Shown: piece by piece, positions 14,547 to 34,500 of the stretch
Layout: every line of letters begins with the position of its first letter
Numbering within the stretch: position 1 is the first letter of the stretch
NCBI GenBank assembly: GCA_028282145.1
Contig: JANQIN010000019.1
Location: 1 to 35,092 of the forward strand
From: Thermodesulfobacteriota bacterium
Lineage (GTDB): Bacteria > Desulfobacterota > Desulfuromonadia > Desulfuromonadales > Geopsychrobacteraceae
Direction of reading: 5' to 3'
Length of the DNA stretch: 35,092 nt
Made by a program: the position numbers and the translations under genes
Notes under the pieces: model-generated
Seen by the model: only the letters and a program-made list of their open reading frames with translations
The model's database searches: none
What the model was told of the DNA's origin: nothing

Positions 14547-15244
14547 TCTTCCTCGGCCAATCGGTAACCAAAACCACGAACCGTCAGAATACGAACCGGG
14601 TGGGCGGGGTCCGATTCGACCTTTTGCCGGATTTTTCCGATATGCACATCAACCACCTTTTCTACCACCGCCTCCGGGTTGTCATAGAGATGGGAAAGGA
14701 GTTCACCTCGGCTGAAGACCTTTCCCGGGGTCTTCATCAGCGCATGGAGCAGCTTGAATTCGGCAGCGGTGAGCTCCACCAGTACCTGGTCTACTCGAAC
14801 CTGAAACTTTTCCAGATCCATCTCGAGTCCCTGCCATGTCAGCCGGGGAAGAACCTTCACTGTGCTTTGTCCGGATCGCCGCAGGATCGCTTTGACCCGT
14901 TCTACAAGTTCGCGGGGGCTGAAAGGTTTGACCACATAATCATCCGCTCCGATGGAAAGTCCCATCACACGATCGATCTCCTCCTCGCGAGCGGTCAGCA
15001 TCAGGATGGGGACATCCGATTCCCGTCGTAACTGACGGCAGACCTCCCAACCATCCATTTTGGGAAGCATGACGTCAAGTACGACAAACATGGGTGATTC
15101 CCGTCGCGCCCTTTCCAGACCTTCCTGACCGTCGTGTACCTGGATCGGTTGGAACCCCTCTCTCTCCAGATAGGTTGCAACCAGGGCCGCCGTGTTGCGG
15201 TCATCCTCTACGATCAACACCTTTTTACCGGAGCCACTTGCCAT
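14543..15244 (-). CDS. OmpR-family response regulator (BaeR-like)
   Basis: A 233-residue DNA-binding regulator. The receiver domain has the acidic pair in VEDD, phospho-acceptor Asp57 (VVLDVMLP) and lysine in VVKPFSPREL. The C-terminal winged helix ends in VRGFGYRLAEEE, with recognition helix VDVHIGKIRQKV, as in CpxR, BaeR and PhoB. A near-perfect Shine-Dalgarno GGAGGTGA precedes ATG 15244. It is co-transcribed with the kinase (4-base overlap). Its likely targets include the GTAAA repeats upstream of the DM13 gene; that is inference from motif type and position. Confidence 0.92.
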   Translation of the reverse strand: MASGSGKKVLIVEDDRNTAALVATYLEREGFQPIQVHDGQEGLERARRESPMFVVLDVMLPKMDGWEVCRQLRRESDVPILMLTAREEEIDRVMGLSIGADDYVVKPFSPRELVERVKAILRRSGQSTVKVLPRLTWQGLEMDLEKFQVRVDQVLVELTAAEFKLLHALMKTPGKVFSRGELLSHLYDNPEAVVEKVVDVHIGKIRQKVESDPAHPVRILTVRGFGYRLAEEE

Positions 15245-15375: not shown

Positions 15376-16752
15376 TCAGTCCATTCCTTCCCCCTTGGGC
15401 TCTACCTTGACCGGTTCCCGCATGGTGACAAACTCTTCCGCGCTGGACGGATGGATGCCGACCGTCCGATCAAAATCAGTTTTGGTGGCACCGGCCTTTA
15501 ATGCAACAGCAAAACCCTGCAGGATTTCGGCCGCTTCCGGCCCGACAAGGTGCACACCCAGAACCTGGTTGGTCGCTGCGTTGACAACCAACTTCATCAA
15601 CGTCTTCTCTTCGATATCTCCGAGACCATATTTCATGGGTCGGAAGGTTGAACGATAAATTTCCACTTGCGAAAATTGCTTGCGCGCTTCTCTTTCTGTC
15701 AGCCCAACTGTTCCCAACGGCGGCTGGCTGAAGATCGTTGTGGGGATCAGGGAGTAGTCCATCGTTCGACTCTCTCCACCGAAATGGTCGGCAGCAAACA
15801 GGCGCCCCTCGTGAATCGCCACCGGCGTCAGATTAACCCGGTTGGTCACATCTCCAATCGCGTAGATCCCCTCTACAGAGGTGCGAAATCGGTCGTCCGT
15901 TTCAATCTCGCCCTGCGAACCGAGCTTGACACCCAATGTTTCCAGTTCCAGCCCTGATATATTGGGTCGTCGACCCGTTGCAAACAACACCGTATCAAAA
16001 GTCATGTTGCTGCATTCTTCGCAGACCAGAGTGATCCCATCCTCTGTTTTCTCAAGCTTTTCCACATGCGTGGCGCAATGGATTTTGAGACCTTTTTTCG
16101 CCTGCTCCACCTGTAAGTGGTCCGCAATATCAACATCAAAACCGCGCAGCAGATGCTGGCACCGGACAACCAGGGTGACATCAACGCCCATTCCGTGGAA
16201 AATACCCGCCATTTCCTGGGCAATATACCCTCCACCGATAATCGCCATTTTCCCGGGCAGTTGCGGCAGCGTAAAAACTTCGTTGGAGGTAACCCCCAAT
16301 TCCTTACCCGGGATATCCGGAACCCAGGGTTTCCCTCCCGTGGCAATCATAAAACGGTCAGCGGTGATAATCTCGTTGCCCACCTGAACCGTTTTGGCAT
16401 CCAGGAATCGGGCTTCTCCCCGAAAAATCATAACGCCGAAATTATCCAGTAACCGTTCATAGACCCCGTTAAGTCGCAGCAGTTCCTGCCGAACGTTTTC
16501 TTTCAGCGTGGGCCAGTCGAACTCGGGTTGTTCCACTTTCCAACCAAAATCGCGAGAGTTTCTGAATTCCTCGGCATAGTGAGAGGCGTAGACCAGAAGC
16601 TTTTTGGGTACGCAGCCGCGATTCACGCAGGTACCACCCAGTCTGTCAACTTCAGCAATTCCGACCCGGGCTCCAAGAGCCGCGGAAGCGCGTGCGCAGG
16701 CAACACCACCGGAGCCTGCGCCCAAGACAAACAGATCAAAATGATTGGGCAT
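15376..16752 (-). CDS. gor: Glutathione-disulfide reductase family flavoprotein
   Basis: NADPH-dependent reduction of glutathione disulfide in the cytosol. The 458-residue product has the FAD-binding GAGSGG (residues 11-16), the redox-active disulfide GGTCVNRGCVPKK (Cys42, Cys47; the RGC form is typical of plant, cyanobacterial and alphaproteobacterial enzymes), an NAD(P) fold at GGGYIAQEMAGI, the second FAD motif YAIGDVT and the C-terminal catalytic VGIHPSSAEE. ATG 16752 is chosen for AAGGAGG just upstream; the frame is open to 16806. Trypanothione-like or other disulfide substrates cannot be excluded. Divergent from the MFS gene. Confidence 0.9.
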   Translation of the reverse strand: MPNHFDLFVLGAGSGGVACARASAALGARVGIAEVDRLGGTCVNRGCVPKKLLVYASHYAEEFRNSRDFGWKVEQPEFDWPTLKENVRQELLRLNGVYERLLDNFGVMIFRGEARFLDAKTVQVGNEIITADRFMIATGGKPWVPDIPGKELGVTSNEVFTLPQLPGKMAIIGGGYIAQEMAGIFHGMGVDVTLVVRCQHLLRGFDVDIADHLQVEQAKKGLKIHCATHVEKLEKTEDGITLVCEECSNMTFDTVLFATGRRPNISGLELETLGVKLGSQGEIETDDRFRTSVEGIYAIGDVTNRVNLTPVAIHEGRLFAADHFGGESRTMDYSLIPTTIFSQPPLGTVGLTEREARKQFSQVEIYRSTFRPMKYGLGDIEEKTLMKLVVNAATNQVLGVHLVGPEAAEILQGFAVALKAGATKTDFDRTVGIHPSSAEEFVTMREPVKVEPKGEGMD

Positions 16753-16856
16753 TTCTTCCTCCTTAAAAACAGAGCCATAAGCATAACATGTGAGATGGCC
16801 CTTCACAGCTCTCTCCTTTCCGTTATGCTACAAAGACGACCCAGGGAGTTTTGGTA
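16753..16856. promoter_or_regulatory. Divergent promoter region, gor / MFS
   Basis: A 104-base region between divergent genes. TATGCT occurs on both strands as a -10-like hexamer (plus strand 16824-16829; minus strand about 16784-16779). No convincing -35 or OxyR-type site is visible. Confidence 0.3.
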
Positions 16857-21629: not shown

Positions 21630-21669
21630 TGCCCCATCTGGATTCCTTCCGTTCGGAGGATCTGTGCCG

Positions 21670-22347
21670 ATGCGCATCCTTCTGATTGAAGACGATATCG
21701 ACCTCGCTGAAAATATTATCGATTACCTGGAAGAGTCCGGGTATGATCTGGATTACGCCATGAGCGGCGAACAGGGGCTGATTCTGCTCAAGGCAAACCC
21801 CTACGATGCCCTGATTCTGGATATCGGTCTGCCCGGAATCGATGGTTTTGCGGTTTGCGAGTACTGTCGCAAGCAATACCGTCTGTCACTGCCCATCCTT
21901 ATGCTGACGGCTCGCACCCAGCTTGACGACAAACTTCACGGTTTTGAATCGGGCACCGATGACTATCTCCCCAAACCGTTCGAGCTGGCCGAGCTTGAGG
22001 TCCGAATCCAGGCCCTGGCACGACGTTCTCGCCCCGTTCAACCTCGTGTTTTAACTTTGGCCGATCTGATCTATGATCTGGACCGAAACGAAGTCCGCCG
22101 GGGAGGAGACTTGATCAACCTTCCTCCCGTCTGTGCTCAAATCCTCAGAGCGCTGATGGAAGCCTCCCCCCGGACCCTGACACGATCTGACTTGGAATAT
22201 CTGATCTGGCGGGACAACCCACCGGAAACGGATGCCCTGAAGGCTCACTTCTATACTTTGCGGCAGATGGTCGACAAACCTTATCCGGTACCGCTGTTGA
22301 AAACCGTCCGTGGCCAGGGGTATCGCATCGAAGCGCCCCCATTATGA
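21670..22347 (+). CDS. OmpR-family response regulator of the molybdoenzyme cluster
   Basis: A 225-residue regulator. The receiver domain starts at MRILLIEDDIDLAENI, with phospho-acceptor Asp51 (LILDIGLPGIDG), threonine in MLTART and lysine in YLPKPFELAEL. The C-terminal winged helix is shorter and less standard than in the regulator at 14543 (TLRQMVDKP in the recognition region, ending VRGQGYRIEAPPL). ATG 21670 is preferred, 9 bases from GGAGGA; GTG 21664 is 3 bases from it. It overlaps the kinase by four bases. The pair sits directly upstream of the reductase operon, so it is the natural candidate regulator. Confidence 0.92.
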   Translation: MRILLIEDDIDLAENIIDYLEESGYDLDYAMSGEQGLILLKANPYDALILDIGLPGIDGFAVCEYCRKQYRLSLPILMLTARTQLDDKLHGFESGTDDYLPKPFELAELEVRIQALARRSRPVQPRVLTLADLIYDLDRNEVRRGGDLINLPPVCAQILRALMEASPRTLTRSDLEYLIWRDNPPETDALKAHFYTLRQMVDKPYPVPLLKTVRGQGYRIEAPPL

Positions 22348-23696
22348 ATCTCTTTCCGCAAAGCCTTCGCTTTCGCATTATCCTGGTTTTTTCCGGATAC
22401 AGCCTGCTTCTGGGGTCGTTGATCGTCGCCGCCATCTTCGCGGCTACCCGCATCGCCGAAGAACAGGCCCTGGAGAAACGTCTGAGCCTCGCAGCGGAAT
22501 ACTACCTTCGCTCCCAGACCGCCTTTCATGCCGGCCCTCTTTCCTCCGGACAGGACGTTCCGATCCCCAGCTCCCCTTATATGACCAGCTACCACGGCGA
22601 AGAGCTTCTTCCCCAGTGGGCAAAAAGCCAGCTCACCGATCTACCGCCGGGAGAATATGTCCGCAAAAACGACAAGCAGAGATACCACATTGCTATACGT
22701 GAACTTCCCGATGAAGAACGCTTTTACCTTATTTATAATGTGACCACTATCAACACCAACCACGAGTTGACCGCCAAGCTGCGAAACACCCTTCTGGTCA
22801 CCCTCCTCCCGGTAGGTCTTTTTGGATTAACGCTCGGTTTGATAACGGCACGCAAATCGATCTCCCCCATGTTGCGTCTGTCCGAAGCGGTGAAAAAGGC
22901 AGAAGAAGACGGGGTTCTCCCCGAAGATCTCTCCCGCGGCTACCACGAGGACGAAGTCGGTCATCTGGCACGCACCCTGGATCATGCTCTGCACGAAATG
23001 GAGGCCGCTATGGAGCGCGAAAAGGCTTTTGCCAGAGATGCCAGCCACGAACTCCGAACCCCCGTGACTACCATTAAGGGGGCGTTGGAGCTCCTTCAAA
23101 AGAGCCCGATGGCCGAGGCCGAACGAGAAGAACGTCTTCTGGGTCGGATCACTCGTGCCACACTGATGATGGAGAACCTGATCCAGTCCCTCCTCTGGTT
23201 GTCACGACAACAGAAGGAAGACGCACTGGGAGAATGCTGCCCGATCGAGGTGATTCGAGAGGTGGTGGAGAGCCATGAATACCTTCGGGCCGCCAAACCG
23301 GTCGATATCCGGGTTGAAGAACATGCAACCCCCAGATTTCCCATAGCTGCACCGATTTTCACCATCCTTGTCGGCAATCTTCTGCGAAACGCCCTCTCCT
23401 ATACGCAACAGGGCGTGATCACGATCGAGATTCATCCACATTGCATCTCCGTTGCAGACACGGGACCAGGGATTCCTGAGGAAAAACTCCAGCAGATATG
23501 CCGTCCCGACGGTCGGTTTCATGCCGAAGGATTTGGTTTTGGCCTCTCGATCGTTCGACGGCTCTGCGAACACCTTGACTGGTCGATGACCATTCACTCT
23601 GTCCCCGGTGAGGGGACACGGGTTAAAATTTGCTCCTGTATCTACCAACCTGATGAGGGCAACTGCCCTCAAACCTGCCTCCGGAATACAACCTAG
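22344..23696 (+). CDS. Sensor histidine kinase of the molybdoenzyme cluster
   Basis: A 450-residue inner-membrane kinase with membrane segments near residues 13-35 and 149-168. They flank a periplasmic domain of about 110 residues (36-148), which probably senses a substrate or redox state outside. A HAMP-like linker follows. The phospho-acceptor is His235 in RDASHELRTPV. The N-box is NLLRNALSY and the G-boxes are ADTGPGI and GFGFGLSIV. Its start overlaps the regulator stop (ATGA). The next gene, the DmsA-like reductase, begins about 150 bases later. The sensed ligand (DMSO, TMAO or another) is not evident. Confidence 0.9.
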   Translation: MNLFPQSLRFRIILVFSGYSLLLGSLIVAAIFAATRIAEEQALEKRLSLAAEYYLRSQTAFHAGPLSSGQDVPIPSSPYMTSYHGEELLPQWAKSQLTDLPPGEYVRKNDKQRYHIAIRELPDEERFYLIYNVTTINTNHELTAKLRNTLLVTLLPVGLFGLTLGLITARKSISPMLRLSEAVKKAEEDGVLPEDLSRGYHEDEVGHLARTLDHALHEMEAAMEREKAFARDASHELRTPVTTIKGALELLQKSPMAEAEREERLLGRITRATLMMENLIQSLLWLSRQQKEDALGECCPIEVIREVVESHEYLRAAKPVDIRVEEHATPRFPIAAPIFTILVGNLLRNALSYTQQGVITIEIHPHCISVADTGPGIPEEKLQQICRPDGRFHAEGFGFGLSIVRRLCEHLDWSMTIHSVPGEGTRVKICSCIYQPDEGNCPQTCLRNTT

Positions 23697-23710
23697 CTTC
23701 ACCCGCCCTT

Positions 23711-23745
23711 CTCTTTACCTACCCTTTACCTTGCCTCTGTTAGGC
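23711..23745 (+). promoter_or_regulatory. TTTAC direct-repeat operator upstream of the molybdoenzyme operon
   Basis: CTTTACCTACC (23713) and CTTTACCTTGCC (23724) form a direct repeat with exactly 11 bases between starts, one helical turn. They are followed by CTCTGTTAG (23735-23743). Read on the other strand this is GTAAA-N6-GTAAA, close to the CpxR-type consensus. CTTTACCTRCC and CTCTGTTAG also occur upstream of the DM13-msrBA operon. The bound regulator is inferred to be one of the two OmpR-type proteins in this window. Confidence 0.6.
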
Positions 23746-23759
23746 TCCCGAATGATCGC

Positions 23760-23787
23760 TGAAAACCCCTATTTATTGGTGTTTTCA
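23760..23787. promoter_or_regulatory. Inverted repeat upstream of dmsA-like gene
   Basis: TGAAAAC (23760-23766) and GTTTTCA (23781-23787) are separated by a 14-base AT-rich spacer between the direct repeats and the start codon. It could be an operator or leader hairpin. No FNR box (TTGAT-N4-ATCAA) is visible in this region. Confidence 0.3.
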
Positions 23788-23849
23788 CGCACTGCACGAC
23801 CATTTTTGACCCGGACCGGCAGGCGATCCGGGCAAGAGGCGAGGTCACT

Positions 23850-26672
23850 ATGGAGGAGAAGATGTCAAACAAGGGTAAAGGGAAGGATCAGGGCTTGACC
23901 GTTTCCCGTCGGAACCTACTCAAAGGGATGGGGGCTGTTGGAGCAGCCGTCGCTGTCAGTGGATGCTCCGCAAAATCTCAGAACACGGAGCAGGCACTCT
24001 TCGATAAAAGCCAGCAGCTCCCGACAGAACCCAAGATCAAGGGTCAGGTGGTTCCCGGAGCCACCCCACACAACTGCGGCGGCCGTTGCGTCAGCAACTA
24101 TTACGTCGAGGAAGGCGTTGTCAAACGGATCGTTACCGACGAGCGTGAAGACAAGGGACTGGACAAAGGAAACGACCCCCAGCGGCGCTCCTGTGTACGC
24201 TGCCGCTCCCGAAGAGAATGGTTTTATCGGGCCGACCGCCTGCAGTACCCCCTTAAACAGATGGGGAAACGTGGCGATATCAACGGATTTGTCCGTATCT
24301 CCTGGGAGCAGGCCTTTAAAGAGATCGCCGAAAAACTGGACCAGGCCTACGCCAAACATTCCCCCGAACAAGTCTTTGTCGCTTACTCCTCCGGTGACGT
24401 TACAAACTGGTCCCGTAACAGCGCCAAACACCTGTTGAACACGGCTTTTCAGGGGTTTGCGGGTTACCGTGACGATTACAGCTGGGCCGCTATCGACCAC
24501 ATGGCCTCTTTTATGGAAGGTGCCGGCTATACCCCCAAGGCCAACTACCGCGACGATGCGGTCAACGCCGATGAGATTATCCTCTGGTCCAATAACACCC
24601 TCGAGAATATCTGGGGGACCCAGAACGGCTGGCTGATCACCCAGATTCGGGAAAAAGGAATCCCTGTCACCTGTATCGACGGCCGTGTTTCGATGACGGC
24701 AGACACCGTCGCCGATACCCTTATCGCTCTCACTCCCGGAACCGATGCGGCGCTGGTCGCCGGCATGATGCACCACCTTCTGACCCACCGTCTGAACGAC
24801 CTGGACATTGACTTTATCAAGGCTCATGTCCACGGCTTCTTCGATGATCCCAAGGCGACCTCCTACCATGCGGATGTGAAAAACTACGGTGTGCCCAACG
24901 GTGCTTCCTTGAGTGCCTTTATTCTGGGAGACGACGATGCCCTCGTACAAGCCGGTCTGAACGGCGCAGCCTCCATCTACCCCGACACTATCGGTTACAA
25001 CGTCACCAGGGAAGACGTCCTGTTCGGCAAGCGTGCACCGATCTACGGTCAGCAGGCCAAAACCCCCGAATGGGCATCTCAGATCACCGGTGTTTCTGCC
25101 AAGCAGATCTGTAAACTGGCCGACACGTACCTCGACAAGAAGGTCACCACGTGGATGGGTACCGGTCTGCAGCGGAATACGGAAGCCGAACAGGGTATCT
25201 GGTACAGCCGCATCCTATCGACCATGACCAAAAACTTCGGTCAGCCCGGTGCGAGCTGGGGGATGCCCAACTGGGCTTATGTCAAAGCCCCCGGCATGGG
25301 TCTGAAAACCGCCGACCTTAACATATCGGTCTACGATTATAGTCAGCTGTCGGTCCCCAAGACCTATCTGAAAAACAGCACCGATAAGGACCTGCCGGCC
25401 TTTATGTGGCTCGACAATGTGGAAAACGGTGTTGGTAAATCTCGCTGGAACGACGGCCAGATTGCCCGGATGAAACCGTTCAAGGCGATCGTCAACTTCG
25501 GCGGCAATACCCTGCTGAACCAGAACGGCGACGTCAACCTGGCGAAAAAGATCATCTCGGACCGCAGTAAAGTGGAATTGATCGTCACCTGCGATCACTT
25601 CATGACCACCTCGGCCCAATTCTCCGACTATGTATTGCCCGGCGCCATGGCGATGGAAAAACCGGCTGCCACTACCGGTTGGTTTGGCCATGAAGTTGTG
25701 GGGGTTAACAAGGTGATGGATCCTCCAGGCGAGGCCATGGCCGAATACGATATTTGCGCCGGAATCGCTGCCGCCAAAGGCAAGAAGGAGGCCTTCACTC
25801 AAGGCGAAACCATGGAGAGTCGACTCGCCAAAGGCTGGAAGAAACTTCAAGACGACGGCTATTACGATATCTCCTGGGAAGAGTTCAAGAAAGAAGGGCT
25901 GTGGAAGGCACCCAAACCCAAGGACATGATCGCCTACGGGGAGTTTTTTGCCGATCCGACCAAGAATCCGCTGCCGACCCCCTCAGGCAAGATCGAAGCC
26001 TTCAGCCGTCTCCTGATGGAGGACTATCAGGGCCGCTACCACAACAATATCGACACCGCTGAAAAGCTGATCGACGGTCAGCTTCCGGGACCGGGTAACA
26101 GTCGTGACATCGATGCAGCACGCTTCGTTTACCCGATTCCGATGTATATTCCCCTGGTGGAGGGCCGCCACGCCAAAGACAGCGCCCTGCCCCACCCTGA
26201 CCTTACCGATGCCGACAACAAAGGGTACCGCTTTACCCTTCACACCTGGCATCGCATGCAGCGCTCTCATTCAACGCTCAATAAGGTTGCTTACCTCAAC
26301 GAACTCTACAAGCAGGACAGCGAGGGAAAACCGGCGTTTGTCGATCCCAAATCCAAATCGCTTGCTGTCTGGGCTGAGAACGTTCTGGAACCGGTCTTCC
26401 TGAATGCAGACCACGCAAAAGCCCTTGGCCTGTCGACAGGCGACAAAGTGAAGGTATTTAACGACCGCGGAGCGATCTACGCTTCAGTCAATTTCACCCA
26501 ACTTGTCCCTGAAGGATTTATTTACATCGGACAGGGCAGTTGGCATCAGGCGGATAAGGATGGAGTCGATATCGGGGGGAACGCCAATACACTGACCAGC
26601 CTGCGTCCGTCCCGTATCGCAAAGATGATGACACTGGCCAACGACTGCCGTGTCGGCATTGTCAAAGCCTAG
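23850..26672 (+). CDS. DmsA-like Tat-exported molybdopterin oxidoreductase
   Basis: Catalytic subunit of the DMSO-reductase family (bis-molybdopterin guanine dinucleotide), 940 residues, longer than DmsA (about 815). A Tat motif SRRNLLKG lies at residues 19-26, and a lipobox-like VSGC ends at Cys39, so it may be a lipoprotein. The [4Fe-4S] segment has Cys76, Cys80 and Cys115, with Thr72 where E. coli DmsA has its first cysteine and an extra Cys118. DDYSWAAI aligns with the DmsA Ser-ligand region. KTPEWASQITGV is identical to a DmsA block. The C-terminal cofactor-cap domain ends in GNANTLTSLRPS. ATG 23862 (GGAGGAG upstream) is an alternative start. Substrate could be DMSO or another S-/N-oxide; unproven. 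Confidence 0.9.
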   Translation: MEEKMSNKGKGKDQGLTVSRRNLLKGMGAVGAAVAVSGCSAKSQNTEQALFDKSQQLPTEPKIKGQVVPGATPHNCGGRCVSNYYVEEGVVKRIVTDEREDKGLDKGNDPQRRSCVRCRSRREWFYRADRLQYPLKQMGKRGDINGFVRISWEQAFKEIAEKLDQAYAKHSPEQVFVAYSSGDVTNWSRNSAKHLLNTAFQGFAGYRDDYSWAAIDHMASFMEGAGYTPKANYRDDAVNADEIILWSNNTLENIWGTQNGWLITQIREKGIPVTCIDGRVSMTADTVADTLIALTPGTDAALVAGMMHHLLTHRLNDLDIDFIKAHVHGFFDDPKATSYHADVKNYGVPNGASLSAFILGDDDALVQAGLNGAASIYPDTIGYNVTREDVLFGKRAPIYGQQAKTPEWASQITGVSAKQICKLADTYLDKKVTTWMGTGLQRNTEAEQGIWYSRILSTMTKNFGQPGASWGMPNWAYVKAPGMGLKTADLNISVYDYSQLSVPKTYLKNSTDKDLPAFMWLDNVENGVGKSRWNDGQIARMKPFKAIVNFGGNTLLNQNGDVNLAKKIISDRSKVELIVTCDHFMTTSAQFSDYVLPGAMAMEKPAATTGWFGHEVVGVNKVMDPPGEAMAEYDICAGIAAAKGKKEAFTQGETMESRLAKGWKKLQDDGYYDISWEEFKKEGLWKAPKPKDMIAYGEFFADPTKNPLPTPSGKIEAFSRLLMEDYQGRYHNNIDTAEKLIDGQLPGPGNSRDIDAARFVYPIPMYIPLVEGRHAKDSALPHPDLTDADNKGYRFTLHTWHRMQRSHSTLNKVAYLNELYKQDSEGKPAFVDPKSKSLAVWAENVLEPVFLNADHAKALGLSTGDKVKVFNDRGAIYASVNFTQLVPEGFIYIGQGSWHQADKDGVDIGGNANTLTSLRPSRIAKMMTLANDCRVGIVKA

Positions 26673-26681
26673 GAGGTCAGC

Positions 26682-27290
26682 ATGACACAACAATACGGAT
26701 TCTACTACGATCAATCCCGCTGTTCGGGGTGCAAAACCTGCGTCGTTGCCTGTAAGGATTGGAACGACGTCAAACCCGGCCCGGCCAACTGGCGACGTGT
26801 GACAATCGTTGAGCAAGGAACCTTCCCCGAAGCCCGGGGCTATAACCTTTCCCTTGGCTGCAACCATTGCGAAAAACCGGCCTGTATGACGATCTGTCCG
26901 GTGAACGCGATCTCGAAGCGTACCGAGGACGGCGTGGTGCTTGTGGACCGTAACGTCTGCATCGCCTGCCAGCAGTGTGGCGACGCCTGCCCCTTCGGAG
27001 CGCCCCAGTACGGGGACGACCAAAGTGAACCGGTGAAGCAAAAGGCCTGGAACGAAGATCATCCGATGCAGAAATGCACCAGTTGTTGGGATCGCAGAGC
27101 CGTTGGGAAAGATCCGGCCTGTGTCGCAGGCTGCATGCAGCGCGCTCTCGATTTCGGTCCCTTGCATGCCATGGAAGCCAAACACCCCAAATCGAAGTTG
27201 ACGGTCGTGGGGCTGCCTTCCGATCGACGGTCCAGAGACGGTGAAGCGATTACCCCGACAAATCCGTCGATTCGTTTCAAAAAGAAGTAA
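26682..27290 (+). CDS. DmsB-like four-cluster ferredoxin subunit
   Basis: Electron-transfer subunit of the upstream reductase, 202 residues, the usual DmsB size. Four cysteine groups for [4Fe-4S] clusters are visible: CSGCKTCVVACKDWN, CNHCEKPACMTICP, CIACQQCGDACPFGAP and CTSCWDRR...CVAGC. AGGAGG overlaps the stop of the preceding gene and lies 5 bases before ATG 26682. In standard DmsABC a DmsC membrane anchor follows. Here an 11-bp hairpin and a radical SAM gene follow instead, so the quinol link is missing from the locus. No Tat signal, as expected for co-export with the catalytic subunit. Confidence 0.93.
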   Translation: MTQQYGFYYDQSRCSGCKTCVVACKDWNDVKPGPANWRRVTIVEQGTFPEARGYNLSLGCNHCEKPACMTICPVNAISKRTEDGVVLVDRNVCIACQQCGDACPFGAPQYGDDQSEPVKQKAWNEDHPMQKCTSCWDRRAVGKDPACVAGCMQRALDFGPLHAMEAKHPKSKLTVVGLPSDRRSRDGEAITPTNPSIRFKKK

Positions 27291-27297
27291 TGTTGTA

Positions 27298-27324
27298 CCG
27301 GTGGAGGGGGAAACCCTCCACCGG
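27298..27324 (+). repeat. Intercistronic hairpin inside the molybdoenzyme operon
   Basis: A perfect 11-bp stem (CCGGTGGAGGG at 27298-27308 with CCCTCCACCGG at 27314-27324) and a GGAAA loop, without a T-tract. It lies 8 bases after the DmsB-like gene, which suggests an mRNA processing or stability element or a partial terminator. Confidence 0.7.
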
Positions 27325-27343
27325 CTTCTCAGAGGAGGCCACT

Positions 27344-28675
27344 ATGGCCGGTTGGGTCCATACCGAACTTGACGCGATTCGAGATCCGGGATTTCGAACC
27401 TATGCAGAACCGTATTTCCGTAAAGAGAAGCGTCTTTTCGATGCCCTGAACGCTGAAGGGTTGAGCATCGGACCGGACAGAACACAAGAAACCACAGCCC
27501 TCTTTCAAAGCCTTCCGGCAAAGGTCATCCGCCGATGCAACGATGGCCGCAGTTTTCACCTCAATGAGCGCTCTCCCGCCTGCCTCCATTGCCAGACCGC
27601 ACAGGGTGCGACCACCTTCATTCTGACACTTGCATGCAACCGGGACTGTTTCTTCTGTACCAACAGGAATCAGCATAACTACGCCGAACTCAGTCAACAC
27701 CTCAACAATGTTACAGAGGCTTTTAACCACTTTCTGGCCGCTGAAGGGCGGGTTCGCTCTGTCGCCCTCACCGGGGGAGAACCTCTTCTTTTCCCCGAAA
27801 ATTGCACCGAGTTCTTTCGTCACGTCAGACAGGTTTCTCCCAGGACCCATACCCGGCTTTACACCAACGGTGACCTGATGACCGAAGAGGTCCTCACCCC
27901 GCTCAAACCGGTGCTGGATGAAATAAGGATAGGGATCAAGGCCGAAGAAAACGGCTCCTTCAACCTTTCCCGGATTGCTCGAACCTTGTCCCTTGCCAAA
28001 CGCTTTATTCCCCAGGTAACGGTGGAGATGCCCGTTCTACCTGACAGTTTCAACACCATGAAACCCTTACTGGACCTGCTGAACCAGGCGCAGATCTTCA
28101 GTGTCAATCTGCTCGAATATCTGTTCCCCTGGCAAAAGGCTGCCGACTACGCTGCCAGAGGGTTCAAGGTCAAACACCGTCCCTACAGGATCCTCTACAA
28201 CTACACCTATGCCGGAGGGGTTCCTGTGGACGGCAGTGAGCTGGAAGCGCTCCGTTGTGTCCGTTATGCCTATGAGAACGATTTCTCCATCGGCGTCCAC
28301 TATTGCAGTCTTGAGAACAAACTCACGTCGCAGATTTTCCAGCAGAATCGACATCTCCCTGCAGGACCGACCGAGATTCAATCGTTAAAGGACTACTTTT
28401 TTAAGTCGATCAAACTGTTCGGAGCCGACGGTCGTAAAGCCTACGCCAGAATGCTTGACGAGGGGTCGGGGCGTTTTCAATGGAATGAAACCGACCAGGT
28501 GTTGGAACTCCATCCCGAAGAGCTTCTTCACCTGGTTGACGCCGATCTGACGGAAGCCGCTGTCACCTACGCTGTGGTGGAACAGGACGGCTGCCAGAAG
28601 CTGGTACGTGAGGTTCACCTGGAACATTTCGATCTACAGAACCGCCATCCGAAGGAAATTTTGGAGTCGTTATGA
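27344..28675 (+). CDS. Radical SAM enzyme of the molybdoenzyme cluster
   Basis: A 443-residue cytoplasmic protein with the radical SAM motif CNRDCFFC (Cys98, Cys102, Cys105) and SAM-binding TGGEP (123-127). An additional CLHC pair (Cys80, Cys83) precedes it. A C-terminal block with VHYCSLENK follows. It resembles pyruvate-formate-lyase-activase-related uncharacterised radical SAM proteins (COG2108-like, from memory). ATG 27344 is chosen because AGGAGG lies 7 bases upstream; a start at 27290 would translate through the hairpin. It overlaps torD-like by four bases. A modification of a subunit, of a cofactor or of a substrate-linked metabolite is possible; no function is established. Confidence 0.85.
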   Translation: MAGWVHTELDAIRDPGFRTYAEPYFRKEKRLFDALNAEGLSIGPDRTQETTALFQSLPAKVIRRCNDGRSFHLNERSPACLHCQTAQGATTFILTLACNRDCFFCTNRNQHNYAELSQHLNNVTEAFNHFLAAEGRVRSVALTGGEPLLFPENCTEFFRHVRQVSPRTHTRLYTNGDLMTEEVLTPLKPVLDEIRIGIKAEENGSFNLSRIARTLSLAKRFIPQVTVEMPVLPDSFNTMKPLLDLLNQAQIFSVNLLEYLFPWQKAADYAARGFKVKHRPYRILYNYTYAGGVPVDGSELEALRCVRYAYENDFSIGVHYCSLENKLTSQIFQQNRHLPAGPTEIQSLKDYFFKSIKLFGADGRKAYARMLDEGSGRFQWNETDQVLELHPEELLHLVDADLTEAAVTYAVVEQDGCQKLVREVHLEHFDLQNRHPKEILESL

Positions 28676-29340
28676 CGGACCTACAGCAGCAAAACGACAT
28701 GCGAAAGACGCGACAAACCATTCTCAGATGGATGGCCGACCTTTTCGCCACCGCTCCGACGCGTCAACAACTGAAGGTCCTTCTGACTATCTTAAATCCG
28801 CTGGCGAATGCCATGGCTGAAGAGATCCCGCAACTACGGGCAGGTTGCGAATTGCTGGAAAAGGCCCTGATCCCTTTGCAAACCCTCTCCGAACCGGAAG
28901 CCGATCTGAACTTGAATCGTGAATATACCCGCCTCTTCTGTCTCAGCCGTCATGTCGTGGGAACAACGGCGTCTGTGATCCTTACCCCCCAGAGACTCAA
29001 CAAAAGAGAGCCCTGGTTTGAGGTTCGTCGGTTCTACCGCAAACACGGTTGGGAGCCAAGAGCAAAGACCCCTGTTCTGGAGGACAGTCTCAGTATGGAA
29101 CTCACCTTCTTCGCCCTGCTCATAGATTCGGAGGAAGAGTCCCTTTTGGAGTTACCGGAACCATCCAAGGTTCCGTTGCAGTTTCTGACGGACCACCTCC
29201 TCAGCTGGGTTCCGGAGTTTGTACGTCAACTGAAGGAAGCAGCACCCGCTTCTTCGCCTTTCGTGGCTGCGGCGCTTCTTTTAGAGGGTTACCTGGAGGT
29301 GGAAAGAACCTTGCTCACTCTGTCACCGGAAGCGGCCTAG
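28672..29340 (+). CDS. TorD/DmsD-family maturation chaperone
   Basis: A 222-residue helical cytoplasmic chaperone. Proteins of this family bind Tat signal peptides and help insert the molybdenum cofactor before export. Landmarks are the EYTRLFCLSRHVVG block near residue 82 and a C-terminal-half pattern PVLEDSLSMELTFFALL that matches the EP.DH...EL.FM..L motif of TorD proteins (here ED.L..EL). It starts inside the radical SAM gene (4-base overlap) and serves one or both of the flanking molybdoenzymes. There is only one such chaperone for two reductases. Confidence 0.85.
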   Translation: MTDLQQQNDMRKTRQTILRWMADLFATAPTRQQLKVLLTILNPLANAMAEEIPQLRAGCELLEKALIPLQTLSEPEADLNLNREYTRLFCLSRHVVGTTASVILTPQRLNKREPWFEVRRFYRKHGWEPRAKTPVLEDSLSMELTFFALLIDSEEESLLELPEPSKVPLQFLTDHLLSWVPEFVRQLKEAAPASSPFVAAALLLEGYLEVERTLLTLSPEAA

Positions 29341-29350
29341 GAGTCGCGTT

Positions 29351-30391
29351 TTGTTCTCTCTGTCCTTTCAAAGTTTTGCTCGCGCCCTGACCCCGGTACC
29401 TCGGTGTAACAACCAAGGGTGTATCCAGCTTTTCCACAAAAACGCCGATTGTCGACGCTGTGTGCAAGCCTGCCCCAGCGGTGCCATAAAGGTCGGTCGC
29501 CCGGGCACCCGTATCTTTCTCGACACCGAACGTTGTCGGGGATGCGAACGCTGCATTGCAGCATGTCCCCTGGGGAACTTTCAGCCTTCGGGTCCCGCCC
29601 CTGGGGCACGTCTTGCGACCTGGCTGGATCGTTCTTCGAACGGCAGGCTAACCTGTGGCTGTCTTCAGGCCGCTGGACGGTGCGTTGCTTCGATCCGTTG
29701 TCACGGTGGGCATTCCGTTGAAAATATCCTTACCCTGACTGCTGAGGGTGTTCGCTACTTCGATTTGAGGAAAGGCGACTGTGCCAACTGTCCGTTCGGG
29801 AACGGAGCACAGTTCCTGGAACAGACATTGATCGGGGCCAATCACCTTCTCAGATCCTTGTCCATCGACAGTATCGAGGTTCGGGAGATGAGCGATGGTC
29901 TCAGCCTCCTCCTGCCTGCCCCATCTCATGCACGACCCGGCAACGCCAAGGTGTCTCATCACGCAGTATCGAGACGGGCTCTTTTTTCCTCCCTGGGACG
30001 TTCTTTTGGCAAAATGGCGGCTTCGACGCTTCCGGGTCAGGAAACGGATCTGTTCCGAACAAAACTTTCCAATCCCGTACCGCGGGCAGGGCTTTATTCT
30101 GCCTTGATGCGATTGGGAGCCACCGATAACGAGATTCGGCCTGCCCTGTTTCCAAGACAGAGTCTCAAGAAGGACCGGTGCAAAGGGTGTCGACTCTGCC
30201 AGAAGTTATGCCGGACAAAGGCATTGGGGTCTTCCAACAGCCTTAAAGAAAGAGTTCATTCCCCCGGTGCCTGTGTCGGATGTCGTCTTTGCGAAACGGG
30301 ATGTCCCCGGCAGGCGATCCGAATCCACGACCCAATGACCAGACGCGGCTACCTTTCCGATTCAACCTGTGGTAAGAAGAACACAGGCTGA
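29351..30391 (+). CDS. Multi-cluster [4Fe-4S] ferredoxin-like protein
   Basis: A 346-residue cysteine-rich protein with a TTG start, set by AGGAG overlapping the torD-like stop 7 bases upstream. The N-terminal part has CRRCVQACP (Cys34, 37, 41; the fourth ligand may be Cys19 or Cys24) and CRGCERCIAACP (Cys62, 65, 68, 72). The middle has a different cysteine set (CGC at 102-104, Cys111, Cys117, then DCANCPFG with Cys144 and Cys147). The C-terminal part has two more classical sites (Cys277-287 and Cys308-318). No signal peptide or membrane segment, so it is probably cytoplasmic or membrane-associated. It may feed electrons to one of the reductases or to the radical SAM enzyme. Confidence 0.85.
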   Translation: MFSLSFQSFARALTPVPRCNNQGCIQLFHKNADCRRCVQACPSGAIKVGRPGTRIFLDTERCRGCERCIAACPLGNFQPSGPAPGARLATWLDRSSNGRLTCGCLQAAGRCVASIRCHGGHSVENILTLTAEGVRYFDLRKGDCANCPFGNGAQFLEQTLIGANHLLRSLSIDSIEVREMSDGLSLLLPAPSHARPGNAKVSHHAVSRRALFSSLGRSFGKMAASTLPGQETDLFRTKLSNPVPRAGLYSALMRLGATDNEIRPALFPRQSLKKDRCKGCRLCQKLCRTKALGSSNSLKERVHSPGACVGCRLCETGCPRQAIRIHDPMTRRGYLSDSTCGKKNTG

Positions 30392-30410
30392 ATTCGGCCA
30401 AGGGTGAATT

Positions 30411-32786
30411 ATGCTCTCGCGACGACGATTTCTGAAACATACGGCCACCGCCATCGCTCTTCTTGGGTGCCCCTGGCCCGACAAAGCGACCGCGGCCCCC
30501 AACTCCCGACTCGTGCCTCATGCAACACACTTCGGCCCGCTACAGGCGGAAGTCCGCGATGGACGATTTATCCGCAGTCATCCTGTCAAAGCCGATCGTT
30601 CTCCCCAGCCGATGCTACAGGCTCTGGTCGACAGGGTCTACGCCCCCAACCGCATTCAGTATCCCTGCGTTCGAAAATCGTTCTTAAACGGTCAAGGCAA
30701 TCCCCACCTGCGTGGAGTGGAAGAGTTTGTCCGGGTCGACTGGGATACAGCACTCGATCTGGTGGCACAACAGATCGATCTGGCACGTGCCGATTTTGGC
30801 AACGAAGCGATATTTCTCCCCGCTTACAGCAACTGGGCTCAGACAGGCTTGGTCAATCGGCCACACCGGCTTCAGGCCCGGTTGATGAATCTGATCGGTG
30901 GGTTTACCGATACCGTCGGCGACTATTCGGCCGGTGCGGCACAGCACACTCTGCCGTACGTACTCGGCTCCCTTGAGGTCTACAGCCAACAGACCAGTGA
31001 AGAGCAGATCGGCCGACACACCGACCTGATGCTCCTTTGGGGAGCAGATCCTTTGAAGACTCTCCGGATTGCCTCACGCGTTCCCGATCATGCCATGATC
31101 GAAAGCTTCCAACGATTCAAGAAGCGTGGGATGAAATTTATCTCCCTCGACCCGCAACGCACAGAGTCGGCCAGAGCCCTTGGAGCCGAGTGGCTCCCTA
31201 TACGCCCCGGAACGGATACGGCATTGGCGCACGCGCTCTGTTACGTTCTCTATCAGGAGAAACGCCACGATCCGAAGTTTCTGGAGCGATATACCGTTGG
31301 CTTTGAACTGTTTCGAGATTATCTTCTGGGCGCATCGGACGGGGTTGCCAAAACGCCTGAATGGGCTGCATCCATCTGTGGTCTTCCCCCGGCCAGGATC
31401 GTCCAGTTGGCGCGACAACTCGCTGCCCAGAGATCGCTCATTGCTGCCAATTGGGCCTGTCAGCGGTCAGAACACGGAGAACAGTTCCATTGGTCAGTCG
31501 TGACCCTTTCGGCCATGCTGGGACAGATTGGTCTCCCGGGCGGAGGATTTGCCTTTGCACTGCACTACAGCGGCGGAGGAACGCCTACTTCCGGTGCGCC
31601 CATGCCCCGCCCTATCCCCGTGGGGCAGAATGCGGTCCGTTCCCTGATACCTGCCAGCCGTATTGGCGAAGTTCTTCGCTTTCCCGGGAAAACGGTTGAT
31701 TTTAAAGGGATGAAACTGACGTACCCCAATATCCGGGTGCTGCATGTTGCTGGAGTCAACCCTGTCGGCTACCAGCAGCATACCAACGAACTGCTACAAG
31801 GAATCAGGTCACTGGATGCGGTCATCGTCCAGGATCCCTGGTGGACCGCTACCGCAAAACATGCGGATATCGTACTCCCTGCCACAACCACTTTTGAACG
31901 GGACGATCTCTGCTATGGCAACACTTTCGGCCGCAACCGTATCTGGGCGATGAAACAGGTGATCCAACCGTTGCATGAAGCCCGCAACGACTACTGGATC
32001 TTTTCTCAACTGGCGAAACGTTTCGGGGTGGAACGGGCATATACCGCCGGTCGGTCTGTTGAAGACTGGGTTCGCTGGAGTTACGGGAGAACACGCCCCA
32101 AGATACCCTTTGAAACTTTTTGGAAAGAAGGCCTGGTCGAGTTTCCAACTCCGTCAGAGGCCAGGGCCTATGTGCGCTATGCCAACTTCCGGAAAAACCC
32201 CGGGCGGTACCCTTTGCGAACTCCCTCCGGACGAATCGAGATATTTTCGGAAAAAATCGCCTCCTTCGGATATCGCTGCTGTCCCGGTTCTCCGACCTGG
32301 ATTCCTCCCAAGGAGGGCCCGAGCGGTATCAAAAGCAAGGCGCTTCCGTTTCAGTTGATCTCCCCTCATCCGACCCATCGTCTGCATTCCCAGTTGGACA
32401 ATACTCCGTTACGTCACAGCTACAAGGTGCAGAATCGAGAACCGATTCGTATTCACCGGGAAGATGCCCAGCAGCTTGGCGTCAAGGACGGAGACCTGGT
32501 GGAGGTCTATAACGAACGAGGAAGTCTTCTGGCAGGTGTCCGAGCGACCGATGATATCCGGCCCGGGGTCGTATCGATTGATGAAGGGGCCTGGTATTCG
32601 GCCGAAATCCCCGGTACACCAAGGAGCCGCTGCCAATCCGGGCATGTCAACGTCCTGACCTCATCCCGACCCAGCTCCCGTTTTTCCCAGGCCTCATCCG
32701 CCAACAGTTGCCAGGTCAATATTCGCCGTGTCGATCAAAAGGTGCAGTCGAATCGGGCCTACGATCCGCCGGTCATTCTCAGCTGA
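30411..32786 (+). CDS. TorA/DorA/BisC-type N-/S-oxide reductase
   Basis: A 791-residue molybdopterin enzyme. A Tat signal has SRRRFLK at residues 3-9, with LLGC as a possible lipobox and a KATA cleavage-like site. It lacks N-terminal iron-sulfur cysteines (HATHFGPLQAEV), as TMAO, DMSO (Rhodobacter) and biotin sulfoxide reductases do. The molybdenum ligand is Ser173 in GDYSAGAAQ. LLWGADPLKTLRIAS and SQLDNTPLRHSYK follow the TorA/DorA pattern. Tyr114 of Rhodobacter DorA appears replaced by Ser140 in the YSNW segment, as in TMAO-preferring enzymes. No TorC-like cytochrome is encoded next to it. A terminator ends the operon. Confidence 0.92.
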   Translation: MLSRRRFLKHTATAIALLGCPWPDKATAAPNSRLVPHATHFGPLQAEVRDGRFIRSHPVKADRSPQPMLQALVDRVYAPNRIQYPCVRKSFLNGQGNPHLRGVEEFVRVDWDTALDLVAQQIDLARADFGNEAIFLPAYSNWAQTGLVNRPHRLQARLMNLIGGFTDTVGDYSAGAAQHTLPYVLGSLEVYSQQTSEEQIGRHTDLMLLWGADPLKTLRIASRVPDHAMIESFQRFKKRGMKFISLDPQRTESARALGAEWLPIRPGTDTALAHALCYVLYQEKRHDPKFLERYTVGFELFRDYLLGASDGVAKTPEWAASICGLPPARIVQLARQLAAQRSLIAANWACQRSEHGEQFHWSVVTLSAMLGQIGLPGGGFAFALHYSGGGTPTSGAPMPRPIPVGQNAVRSLIPASRIGEVLRFPGKTVDFKGMKLTYPNIRVLHVAGVNPVGYQQHTNELLQGIRSLDAVIVQDPWWTATAKHADIVLPATTTFERDDLCYGNTFGRNRIWAMKQVIQPLHEARNDYWIFSQLAKRFGVERAYTAGRSVEDWVRWSYGRTRPKIPFETFWKEGLVEFPTPSEARAYVRYANFRKNPGRYPLRTPSGRIEIFSEKIASFGYRCCPGSPTWIPPKEGPSGIKSKALPFQLISPHPTHRLHSQLDNTPLRHSYKVQNREPIRIHREDAQQLGVKDGDLVEVYNERGSLLAGVRATDDIRPGVVSIDEGAWYSAEIPGTPRSRCQSGHVNVLTSSRPSSRFSQASSANSCQVNIRRVDQKVQSNRAYDPPVILS

Positions 32787-32853: not shown

Positions 32854-34500
32854 TTACACCAAGCAAACCTTCTGACGAAGCATATCCACCAGCACCTTGT
32901 TATTCTCGGAATAATCCACCGGCAGATCGACCAAGTGCACCCCACCCTTCTTGTAACATTTCTCAAGCAGAGGTACCAGTTTGGAAGCCGCCTTGACCCG
33001 ATGCCCGGTTGCCCCGTAGGCTTCGGCATACTTGACAAAATCGGGATTATGAAATTCCAGCCCGAAATCCTCATACCCCATCGCGTATTGTTTCCAGCGG
33101 ATCATCCCATAAGAGCTGTCGTTCAGGATCATGACGACGAGGTTCAGACCGAGACGTACGGCCGTTTCAACCCCTTGACTGTTCATCATGAATCCGCCAT
33201 CACCGACAATCGCCATCACTTGACGCTCCGGCCAGAGCCGGGCCACTTCCATCGCCGAAGGCAAACCTGCACCCATGGTCGCCAGGGCATTGTCCAACAG
33301 AACCGTATTCGGTTCTCGGGCCAGGTAGTTCCGGGCGAACCATATTTTGTAGATCCCGTTATCCAGTGCAATAACCCCATCATCGGGCATCACCTTGCGC
33401 ACATCCGCAACAACCCTTTGCGGCTTCATGGGAAAGGAATCGTTTTCTGTTTCTTCGCGAATGTGCTGGTCCAGATGGTCTTTTACCTGGGCGAAATAGG
33501 CGTTATCTCCCTTCAACGCCCCAAGCATTTCGGTCAGGCGGGCGATCGATGAGGCGATATCGCCAACGACTTCTACCTGCGGAAAGTACACATTATCGAC
33601 AATAGCGCTGTTGAAGTTGATATGAATGACCGTTTTGCCGCCATGCTCCATAAAGAATGGGGGTTTTTCGACCACATCGTGTCCGACGTTGATGACAAGA
33701 TCGGAGCGCCCGATGGCACAATGGATGTAATCGTTATCTGACAACGCAGCTGTTCCGAGGAACTGGGGGCTCCGCTCATCAATGACACCTTTGCCCATCT
33801 GGGTGTTGATAAAATAGATACCGGTGGTTTCGACAAACTTTTCCAGTTCGGAGCGAACACGGCGACGATTGGCCCCCGCCCCGATCAGCAGCAGGGGATT
33901 TTTGGCATTTCTGACGGCTTCGGCAGCCGTCTGCAGCGTTTCCTCATCGGCCTCTGGGATCCTGACATAGGATTTCGGAAAGACAGGAATACTGTTGCTC
34001 TCTACCGGTTCCCTGGCGACATCTTCCGGCAGCTCCAGGTGAACCGCCCCCGGCCGTTCTTCCCGGCTGACCCGAAAGGCTTCACGAACCATGCTGGGAA
34101 TCATATTGACGTTGACGATCTGACGGGTGTACTTGGTCAGAGGCTGCATCATCTTCACCACGTCCACAATCTGGAACTGCCCCTGCTTGCTGGATTTAAT
34201 CGGTTTTTGCCCGGTGATCATCAACATCGGAAAAGCACCGAGATTGGCATAGGCGCCCGCGGTAACAAGGTTGGTTGCCCCCGGTCCAAGTGTTGACAGA
34301 CACACACCGGTTTTGCCGGTCAGGCGACCATAGGTCGCCGCCATAAAGCCAGCACCCTGTTCGTGACGGCAGAGTATCAGCCTGATCGACGATTTGCGAA
34401 GAGCCTCCAGAAAATCGAGGTTTTCTTCACCAGGGACGCCGTAGATCACTTCAACCCCTTCGTTTTCCAACGCTTTCACAAAAAGTTCTGACGCATTCAT
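32854..34500 (-). CDS. Acetolactate synthase-type ThDP enzyme, large subunit only
   Basis: A 548-residue thiamine-diphosphate enzyme, most like acetolactate synthase (two pyruvate to 2-acetolactate plus CO2). The activating glutamate is Glu47 in CRHEQGAGFMAATYGRLTGK (key HEQ.A.FMA). LSTLGPGATNL, the ThDP/Mg site GDGGFMMNSQG through NDSSYGMI, and the central domain GAGANRRRV are present. There is no regulatory subunit gene (ilvN/ilvH) next to it, which points to a catabolic AlsS-like enzyme for acetoin or 2,3-butanediol, or to a related pyruvate/oxalyl-CoA-type decarboxylase. GGAGG lies 10 bases before ATG 34500. Single-gene unit with its own AT-rich control region. Confidence 0.82.
   Translation of the reverse strand: MNASELFVKALENEGVEVIYGVPGEENLDFLEALRKSSIRLILCRHEQGAGFMAATYGRLTGKTGVCLSTLGPGATNLVTAGAYANLGAFPMLMITGQKPIKSSKQGQFQIVDVVKMMQPLTKYTRQIVNVNMIPSMVREAFRVSREERPGAVHLELPEDVAREPVESNSIPVFPKSYVRIPEADEETLQTAAEAVRNAKNPLLLIGAGANRRRVRSELEKFVETTGIYFINTQMGKGVIDERSPQFLGTAALSDNDYIHCAIGRSDLVINVGHDVVEKPPFFMEHGGKTVIHINFNSAIVDNVYFPQVEVVGDIASSIARLTEMLGALKGDNAYFAQVKDHLDQHIREETENDSFPMKPQRVVADVRKVMPDDGVIALDNGIYKIWFARNYLAREPNTVLLDNALATMGAGLPSAMEVARLWPERQVMAIVGDGGFMMNSQGVETAVRLGLNLVVMILNDSSYGMIRWKQYAMGYEDFGLEFHNPDFVKYAEAYGATGHRVKAASKLVPLLEKCYKKGGVHLVDLPVDYSENNKVLVDMLRQKVCLV

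Follow-up and report, generated by a model that had tools for sequence, protein, structure and literature searches.

Enzymes carrying the molybdenum bis-pyranopterin guanine dinucleotide (Mo-bisPGD) cofactor are known to be matured with the help of NarJ/TorD chaperones (including DmsD), FdhD, and NapD/NapF, and the term radical SAM (S-adenosylmethionine) is absent from a 2023 review of the process (PMC10609526). In Escherichia coli DmsA, the FS0 cluster is required prior to insertion of the molybdenum cofactor, and in Rhodobacter sphaeroides assembly of the NapA cluster requires NapF (PMC10609526). In Shewanella oneidensis, DmsEFABGH constitutes an extracellular dimethyl sulfoxide (DMSO)/iodate reductase with DmsAB at the cell surface (PMC11302344, PMC9048795). 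Here we describe a related locus on a 35,092-nucleotide (nt) stretch, referred to as the window (contig JANQIN010000019.1 of GCA_028282145.1), from a metagenome-assembled genome (MAG) of the Geopsychrobacteraceae (Desulfobacterota), in which genes for DmsA- and DmsB-type subunits, a radical SAM protein (rSAM), a TorD-type chaperone, a ferredoxin, and a TorA-type reductase form a single run. We propose, with about even confidence, that the locus represents a respiratory island for S- or N-oxides, gained by horizontal transfer and controlled by a two-component system, in which a cytosolic maturation module of rSAM, TorD, and a NapF-like ferredoxin serves DmsAB.

The window shares with E. coli DmsABC the DmsA plus DmsB architecture and the serine ligand to molybdenum, but differs in having no DmsC, a twin-arginine translocation (Tat)-lipoprotein leader on DmsA, and an altered set of FS0 cysteines that includes a new Cys118. 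With the Shewanella system it shares DmsAB without DmsC and a TorD-like chaperone (DmsG). Relatives of the cluster in Deferribacterota, though not the window, also share the outer-membrane barrel and multiheme cytochrome, with a 5/6-heme cytochrome of ~160 amino acids (aa) in place of the decaheme DmsE. The window departs further from Shewanella, as no barrel or cytochrome was found, a radical SAM protein, a four-cluster ferredoxin, a two-component system, and TorA are added, and FS0 is rearranged.

The original prediction had described a tight six-gene run, and all six open reading frames are present on the plus strand between 23850 and 32786, separated in order by +9, −1, −4, +10, and +19 nt, with family assignments confirmed by hidden Markov model (HMM) scans against Pfam and NCBIfam. 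Its observation that DmsC, TorC/TorY, and multiheme cytochromes are missing also holds: no gene for the DmsC membrane anchor of a DmsABC enzyme occurs between 23696 and 32854, and no TorC/TorY, multiheme cytochrome, or other heme protein is encoded within the run.

When 84,980 species genomes were searched with rSAM, most relatives came from Deferribacterota; Coriobacteriales contributed one, and Elusimicrobia weak matches. In 11 genomes of Deferribacterota, a total of 13 loci place rSAM beside torD and dmsAB on the same strand (one of these, L130, is on a contig that fits DmsB only); a ferredoxin homologue follows rSAM-TorD at ten loci, and follows rSAM directly in Mucispirillum. Among 51 Deferribacterota genomes, both rSAM and the DmsA subfamily of the window were found in 20, rSAM only in 5, DmsA only in 3, and neither in 23 (Fisher p = 8e-7, uncorrected for relatedness, with two orphan-family matches removed). 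Two gene sets recur in this phylum, namely response regulator (RR)-histidine kinase (HK)-torA, sometimes with a monoheme cytochrome, and dmsA-dmsB-rSAM-torD-ferredoxin, which may be preceded by barrel and 5/6-heme cytochrome genes. Mucispirillum carries one stand-alone rSAM-ferredoxin pair with its dmsA loci elsewhere, an arrangement that fits a trans-acting factor. In Coriobacteriia, rSAM is present in 50 of 298 genomes in up to four copies, with dmsA and dmsB no more than 6 kb away at 18 of 20 inspected loci, where neither a barrel nor a cytochrome was seen. What accompanies rSAM throughout these phyla is a DmsAB-type reductase, often with TorD; no such constancy holds for the barrel, cytochrome, TorA, or ferredoxin. 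Because both the window genome and the coriobacterial loci have rSAM without a barrel or cytochrome, rSAM tracks the reductase rather than the conduit.

The neighborhood search proposed in the original prediction, with rSAM as query, thus yields a DmsA-DmsB-rSAM-TorD(-ferredoxin) arrangement maintained in Deferribacterota and an rSAM-DmsAB linkage in Coriobacteriia. Its idea of one six-gene system fared less evenly. Homologues of all six genes do occur at a single locus in Deferribacteraceae UBA6793 (L012), and are split across ~25 kb, some of them duplicated, at L071/L072, but TorA falls outside the tight core, DmsAB-rSAM-TorD(-ferredoxin); it goes with the two-component system and lies beside DmsAB in some genomes only. 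No report of an rSAM-DmsAB linkage was found in open-access PubMed Central full text (subscription journals and preprints lie outside this scope), and its novelty is provisional.

Several other arrangements were seen among the relatives. The Deferribacterota locus L131 (1825-11377) reads RR-HK-torA-cytochrome-barrel-6-heme cytochrome-rSAM-torD, with dmsAB missing. Seleniivibrio has a second operon, barrel-5-heme cytochrome-DmsAB-TorD, with a canonical DmsA and no rSAM (L070:4078-15206, L072:282-6239), which directly adjoins HK-torA-RR genes. Loci L067, L076, and L077 (genomes G455 and G452; Deferribacterales/Mucispirillum) encode many DmsA paralogues of ~1,000-1,200 aa, several with their own barrel and 5-heme cytochrome.

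Homology suggests that the true start of rSAM lies near 27353, and cysteines are numbered here on 27353-28672. The protein belongs to the radical SAM superfamily (CxxxCxxC, PF04055), and six cysteines are invariant in an alignment of 37 sequences comprising the window, Deferribacterota, and Coriobacteriia members: C77 and C80 in SxxCxxC, C95, C99, and C102 in CxxxCxxC, and C318, mostly within HYCSLEN. The three outside the superfamily motif, C77, C80, and C318, could hold an auxiliary cluster. No curated NCBIfam cutoff was reached, with scores of 51 bits for HxsC (268 needed), 47 for viperin (180), 37 for MoaA (284), and 29 for pyruvate formate-lyase (PFL) activase (232), and weak similarity to geopeptide maturases was also seen. 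The core of the AlphaFold model (pLDDT 93.8) resembles PFL-activase and viperin, the top matches, as well as maturases of ribosomally synthesized and posttranslationally modified peptides (RiPPs), including SuiB; MoaA was not among the top matches. Query-normalized TM-scores were all under 0.4, and these folds therefore leave much of rSAM unaccounted for. An identity as MoaA or viperin was rejected, as the scores fall far under the cutoffs. Homologues from the window's own order, ~30% identical, were likewise set aside as a separate orphan family that is not near molybdenum enzymes (SxGCxxC..WSCLFI..CNxxCFYC; L037-L050, L134, L135, L142); this family also occurs in some Deferribacterota. At the Deferribacterota locus L133 (2840-5182), the gene for a further radical SAM protein of 780 aa, B12 binding (PF02310 plus PF04055), is flanked by two dmsA/dmsB remnants and precedes rSAM-torD-ferredoxin.

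The names DmsA-like and TorA-like in the original prediction identify relatives of both enzymes but are approximate, since neither protein reaches its curated cutoff. DmsA scored 441 bits on dmsA_ynfE (TIGR02166; cutoff, 777.7), and because this cutoff is missed, we assign it from its sequence to a separate, noncanonical DmsA-type subfamily. A canonical DmsA of Seleniivibrio (DmsA900 of L070) scored 891.8 bits on the same model and is 26% identical to the window protein, whereas Deferribacterota counterparts are about 40-56% identical (54-56% for L012 and L127). The leader of DmsA combines a Tat signal with a lipobox ending at Cys39 (SRRNLLKG...VSGC39) and is common to most relatives. The original prediction was right that DmsC is absent, but in stating that there is no membrane anchor it overlooked this leader; because of the lipobox, DmsA may be lipid anchored, with the leader possibly substituting for DmsC. 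FS0 ligands are C76, C80, C115, and C118, and the molybdenum ligand is Ser211, which aligns with the DYS motif of E. coli DmsA. The cysteine pattern of FS0 is not the canonical one of E. coli: no cysteine is present at the first E. coli position, and Cys118, within a CxxC, replaces an E. coli glycine. Subfamily members aligned from Deferribacterota keep this rearrangement, which is not found in E. coli DmsA, DmsA900 of L070, or the coriobacterial partners. DmsB is 54-57% identical to its counterparts in L012, L071, and G302, and remains below the DMSO_dmsB equivalog cutoff (TIGR02951; 167.5 bits, cutoff 214.1).

The TorD protein scored 75.6 bits on PF02613, well above the gathering score of 22.2. 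The ferredoxin comprises two dicluster [4Fe-4S] domains flanking a middle domain with further invariant cysteines. It shares with NapF a cytosolic location, four clusters, and a gene placed with that of a Tat-exported molybdenum enzyme, but it is more than twice as long, has the cysteine-bearing middle domain, and lies far under the napF cutoff (30 bits versus 102). The original prediction had suggested that electrons could pass through this 346-residue protein; because it has neither an export signal nor a membrane partner, a NapF-like cytosolic maturation factor is more likely than a respiratory electron relay.

TorA has a Tat leader and is a full-length homologue of MtsZ, DorA, and TorA. 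It scored 903.2 bits over the whole bisC_fam model (TIGR00509; cutoff, 1,017.6), marking it as a clear relative, and it was below the TorA cutoff as well. Its closest solved relative is 7l5i (673 bits), labeled trimethylamine-N-oxide (TMAO) reductase, which we take to be Haemophilus influenzae MtsZ; DorA structures follow (650 and 626 bits). Tyr139 and Trp142 correspond to Tyr114 and Trp116 of the DorA pocket, with one residue inserted. The window differs from the MtsZ, DorA, and TorA systems in having no cognate TorC, TorY, BisB, or DorB/C. MtsZ and DorA act on methionine sulfoxide (PMC7402097, PMC7759655), and the window enzyme could plausibly reduce a sulfoxide, for example methionine sulfoxide or DMSO.

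The run of six is real, but the extent originally given is too small, as RR and HK directly upstream belong to the conserved set. The best NCBIfam matches of RR are OmpR-type regulators; it is 54-57% identical to RRs of Deferribacterota clusters (L074, L078, L069, L070, L131), and HK is 40-48% identical to kinases preceding torA (L069, L070, L071, L074, L078, L131). Because these homologues recur in Deferribacterota clusters, we take the unit, on gene content, to be eight genes spanning 21664-32786 that include the two-component system. A kinase and an OmpR-type regulator beside a torA-type gene are also seen in the TorS/TorR system for TMAO, from which the window differs in its simple 450-aa kinase (60 bits on TIGR02956 torS, 676 needed). 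HK and dmsA are separated by 153 nt, within which a near-palindrome lies (Table 1). Scans for consensus promoters and terminators gave no more matches than in shuffled sequence. A convergent acetolactate synthase gene lies downstream of the cluster at 32854-34500. Elsewhere in the window, a BaeSR-like two-component system (13470-15244, minus strand) stands beside a glutathione-reductase-like gene (15376-16806).

Table 1. Genes and candidate regulatory element of the reductase locus in the window
Feature	Position	Strand	Remarks
OmpR-type response regulator (RR)	21664..22347	+	Best NCBIfam matches are OmpR-type RRs
Membrane sensor histidine kinase (HK)	22344..23696	+	4-nt overlap with RR
Imperfect palindrome TGAAAACCCCTAT-TT-ATTGGTGTTTTCA	23760..23787		Arms of 13 nt, 85% complementary; candidate operator
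DmsA-type Mo-bisPGD catalytic subunit	23850..26672	+	940 aa
DmsB-type four-[4Fe-4S] subunit	26682..27290	+	202 aa
Radical SAM protein (rSAM), unnamed family	27290..28675	+	461 aa; PF04055
TorD/NarJ-type chaperone	28672..29340	+	222 aa; PF02613; 4-nt overlap with rSAM
Cytosolic ferredoxin	29351..30391	+	346 aa; TTG start
TorA/DorA/MtsZ-type periplasmic S-/N-oxide reductase	30411..32786	+	791 aa

The ~475-aa protein encoded with the Deferribacterota reductases gave no Pfam or NCBIfam match; its Sec-type leader, strand-rich character, and C-terminal pattern typical of outer-membrane barrels point to a putative barrel. These relatives have the partners of a Shewanella-type DmsEFAB system, a barrel and a multiheme cytochrome, and electrons probably arrive through them. 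Searched with alignments of the barrel and of the cytochrome from Deferribacterota, the window genome (94% complete) gave no match, although homologues of Shewanella DmsE/DmsF were not searched for; the absence looks like loss or incomplete transfer. Elsewhere this genome carries a PsrABC-like operon encoding a molybdenum enzyme, a four-cluster subunit, and a subunit with seven transmembrane segments (L056:7938-11859).

Among 395 sampled genomes of the phylum to which the window belongs, the rSAM family is present in one, that of the window, and the DmsA subfamily in two, that of the window and G302; the latter has dmsAB only, at a contig end. A survey of 78 close relatives gave a single weak TorA homologue, and TorA is 48-52% identical to Deferribacterota torA products. 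In a phylogenetic tree, the window rSAM is placed inside Deferribacterota as sister to Seleniivibrio L071 (SH-aLRT support, 99; containing clade, 95); the DmsB tree is long branched and gives weak support only. Identity to Deferribacterota counterparts is lower for rSAM (37-46%), TorD, and the ferredoxin (23-29%), which are more distant homologues than RR, HK, DmsA, DmsB, and TorA (40-57%). In tetranucleotide usage, the cluster agrees with its host genome (r 0.88-0.92), but does not fit the Deferribacterota loci (r ≤0.67); with the upstream flank included, the values are 0.88-0.96 against other contigs and ≤0.70 against Deferribacterota loci. Contamination of the MAG was rejected, as composition fits the genome's other contigs and not those loci. 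Since hardly any other genome of the phylum has such genes, yet the composition of the cluster is native, the simplest and a likely reading is that it was acquired horizontally long ago and has since ameliorated.

That rSAM matures DmsAB, acting on the protein or its clusters, seems to us about evenly balanced, and we regard rSAM as a candidate for a new factor in molybdenum enzyme assembly. Several observations weigh against this assignment. In three of the 51 Deferribacterota genomes the DmsA subfamily is present but rSAM is not, and at L131 rSAM-TorD stands beside TorA in a genome whose DmsA copies lie elsewhere. Coriobacteriia are rich in reductases, which inflates rSAM-DmsAB adjacency; by rough estimate rather than computation, chance adjacency would be ~1 in 10 at one reductase per 100-200 kb. 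The coriobacterial partners are also a varied set of MopB enzymes, and the FS0 rearrangement is missing from them. A dependence of rSAM on this rearrangement was accordingly rejected, and the modification, if on DmsA, would not be bound to FS0. Finally, no convincing NapC/NrfH-type quinol dehydrogenase was found in the MAG.

Four other explanations were weighed. It is unlikely that rSAM is a metabolic enzyme making or consuming a substrate or product of the reductase, the cluster then encoding an undescribed conversion, as the original prediction had ventured. Such a role would suit a protein that falls in none of the named maturase families and whose coriobacterial reductase partners are diverse in sequence, but one rSAM family accompanies reductases with differing active-site regions across phyla, is closely coupled to the chaperone gene (4-nt overlap in the window, spacing of −13 to +72 nt in relatives), and has no transporter or other catabolic gene conserved with it; the idea gained no specific support and is kept as a rival. 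Equally unlikely, in our estimation, is that rSAM modifies the molybdenum cofactor by MoaA-like chemistry on a pterin or nucleotide rather than a protein. Every partner belongs to the Mo-bisPGD family, and the invariant C77, C80, and C318 might bind a MoaA-like auxiliary cluster, but the MoaA score and the top fold matches given above speak against it. More doubtful again is the notion that a DmsAB operon and a TorA gene are adjacent but independent, with rSAM as a passenger: in relatives TorA and DmsAB are not invariably neighbors, and the window has its genes in an order unlike that of Deferribacterota, but all eight genes have homologues that turn up in shared neighborhoods in another phylum, the rSAM-DmsAB linkage holds in a third, and the window genes overlap or nearly touch throughout. 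Very improbable is a RiPP maturase or glycyl radical activase acting on a peptide or enzyme encoded nearby, a disfavored reading for which the weak HxsC and geopeptide-maturase similarities and the PFL-activase and SuiB structural matches speak, but which is countered by the lack of a SPASM match in NCBIfam and Pfam scans, of a glycyl radical enzyme in the cluster, and of space in the window to fit a precursor gene next to rSAM, whose overlaps there with DmsB and TorD are 1 and 4 nt.

Returning to maturation of DmsAB, we infer the following scheme for cellular location, electron donor, rSAM reaction, and substrates from the observed gene set, conservation, cysteine patterns, and phylogenetic distribution. 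TorD would hold apo-DmsA in the cytosol while the ferredoxin supplies electrons and/or aids cluster assembly, and rSAM would make a modification required for active DmsA(B) before Tat export. DmsAB would then be a Tat-exported, probably lipid-anchored reductase whose DmsB subunit, outside the cytosol, would receive electrons from a c-type cytochrome encoded elsewhere, and the TorA/MtsZ-type enzyme would act as a second, soluble, periplasmic reductase. In Deferribacterota, the 5/6-heme cytochrome and outer-membrane barrel would take the role of electron donor, giving a Shewanella-like extracellular arrangement.

More tentatively, the rSAM family may be a general maturase of DmsAB-type reductases in at least three phyla, unrecognized before, that introduces a modification, on protein or cofactor, on which activity depends. 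The window cluster would offer a natural experiment in this respect: with the conduit absent and rSAM, TorD, and the ferredoxin present, maturation genes are separated from those for electron transfer. If the assignment is true, an rSAM maturase would add a missing step to Mo-bisPGD enzyme maturation and could account for the difficulty of expressing some of these enzymes.

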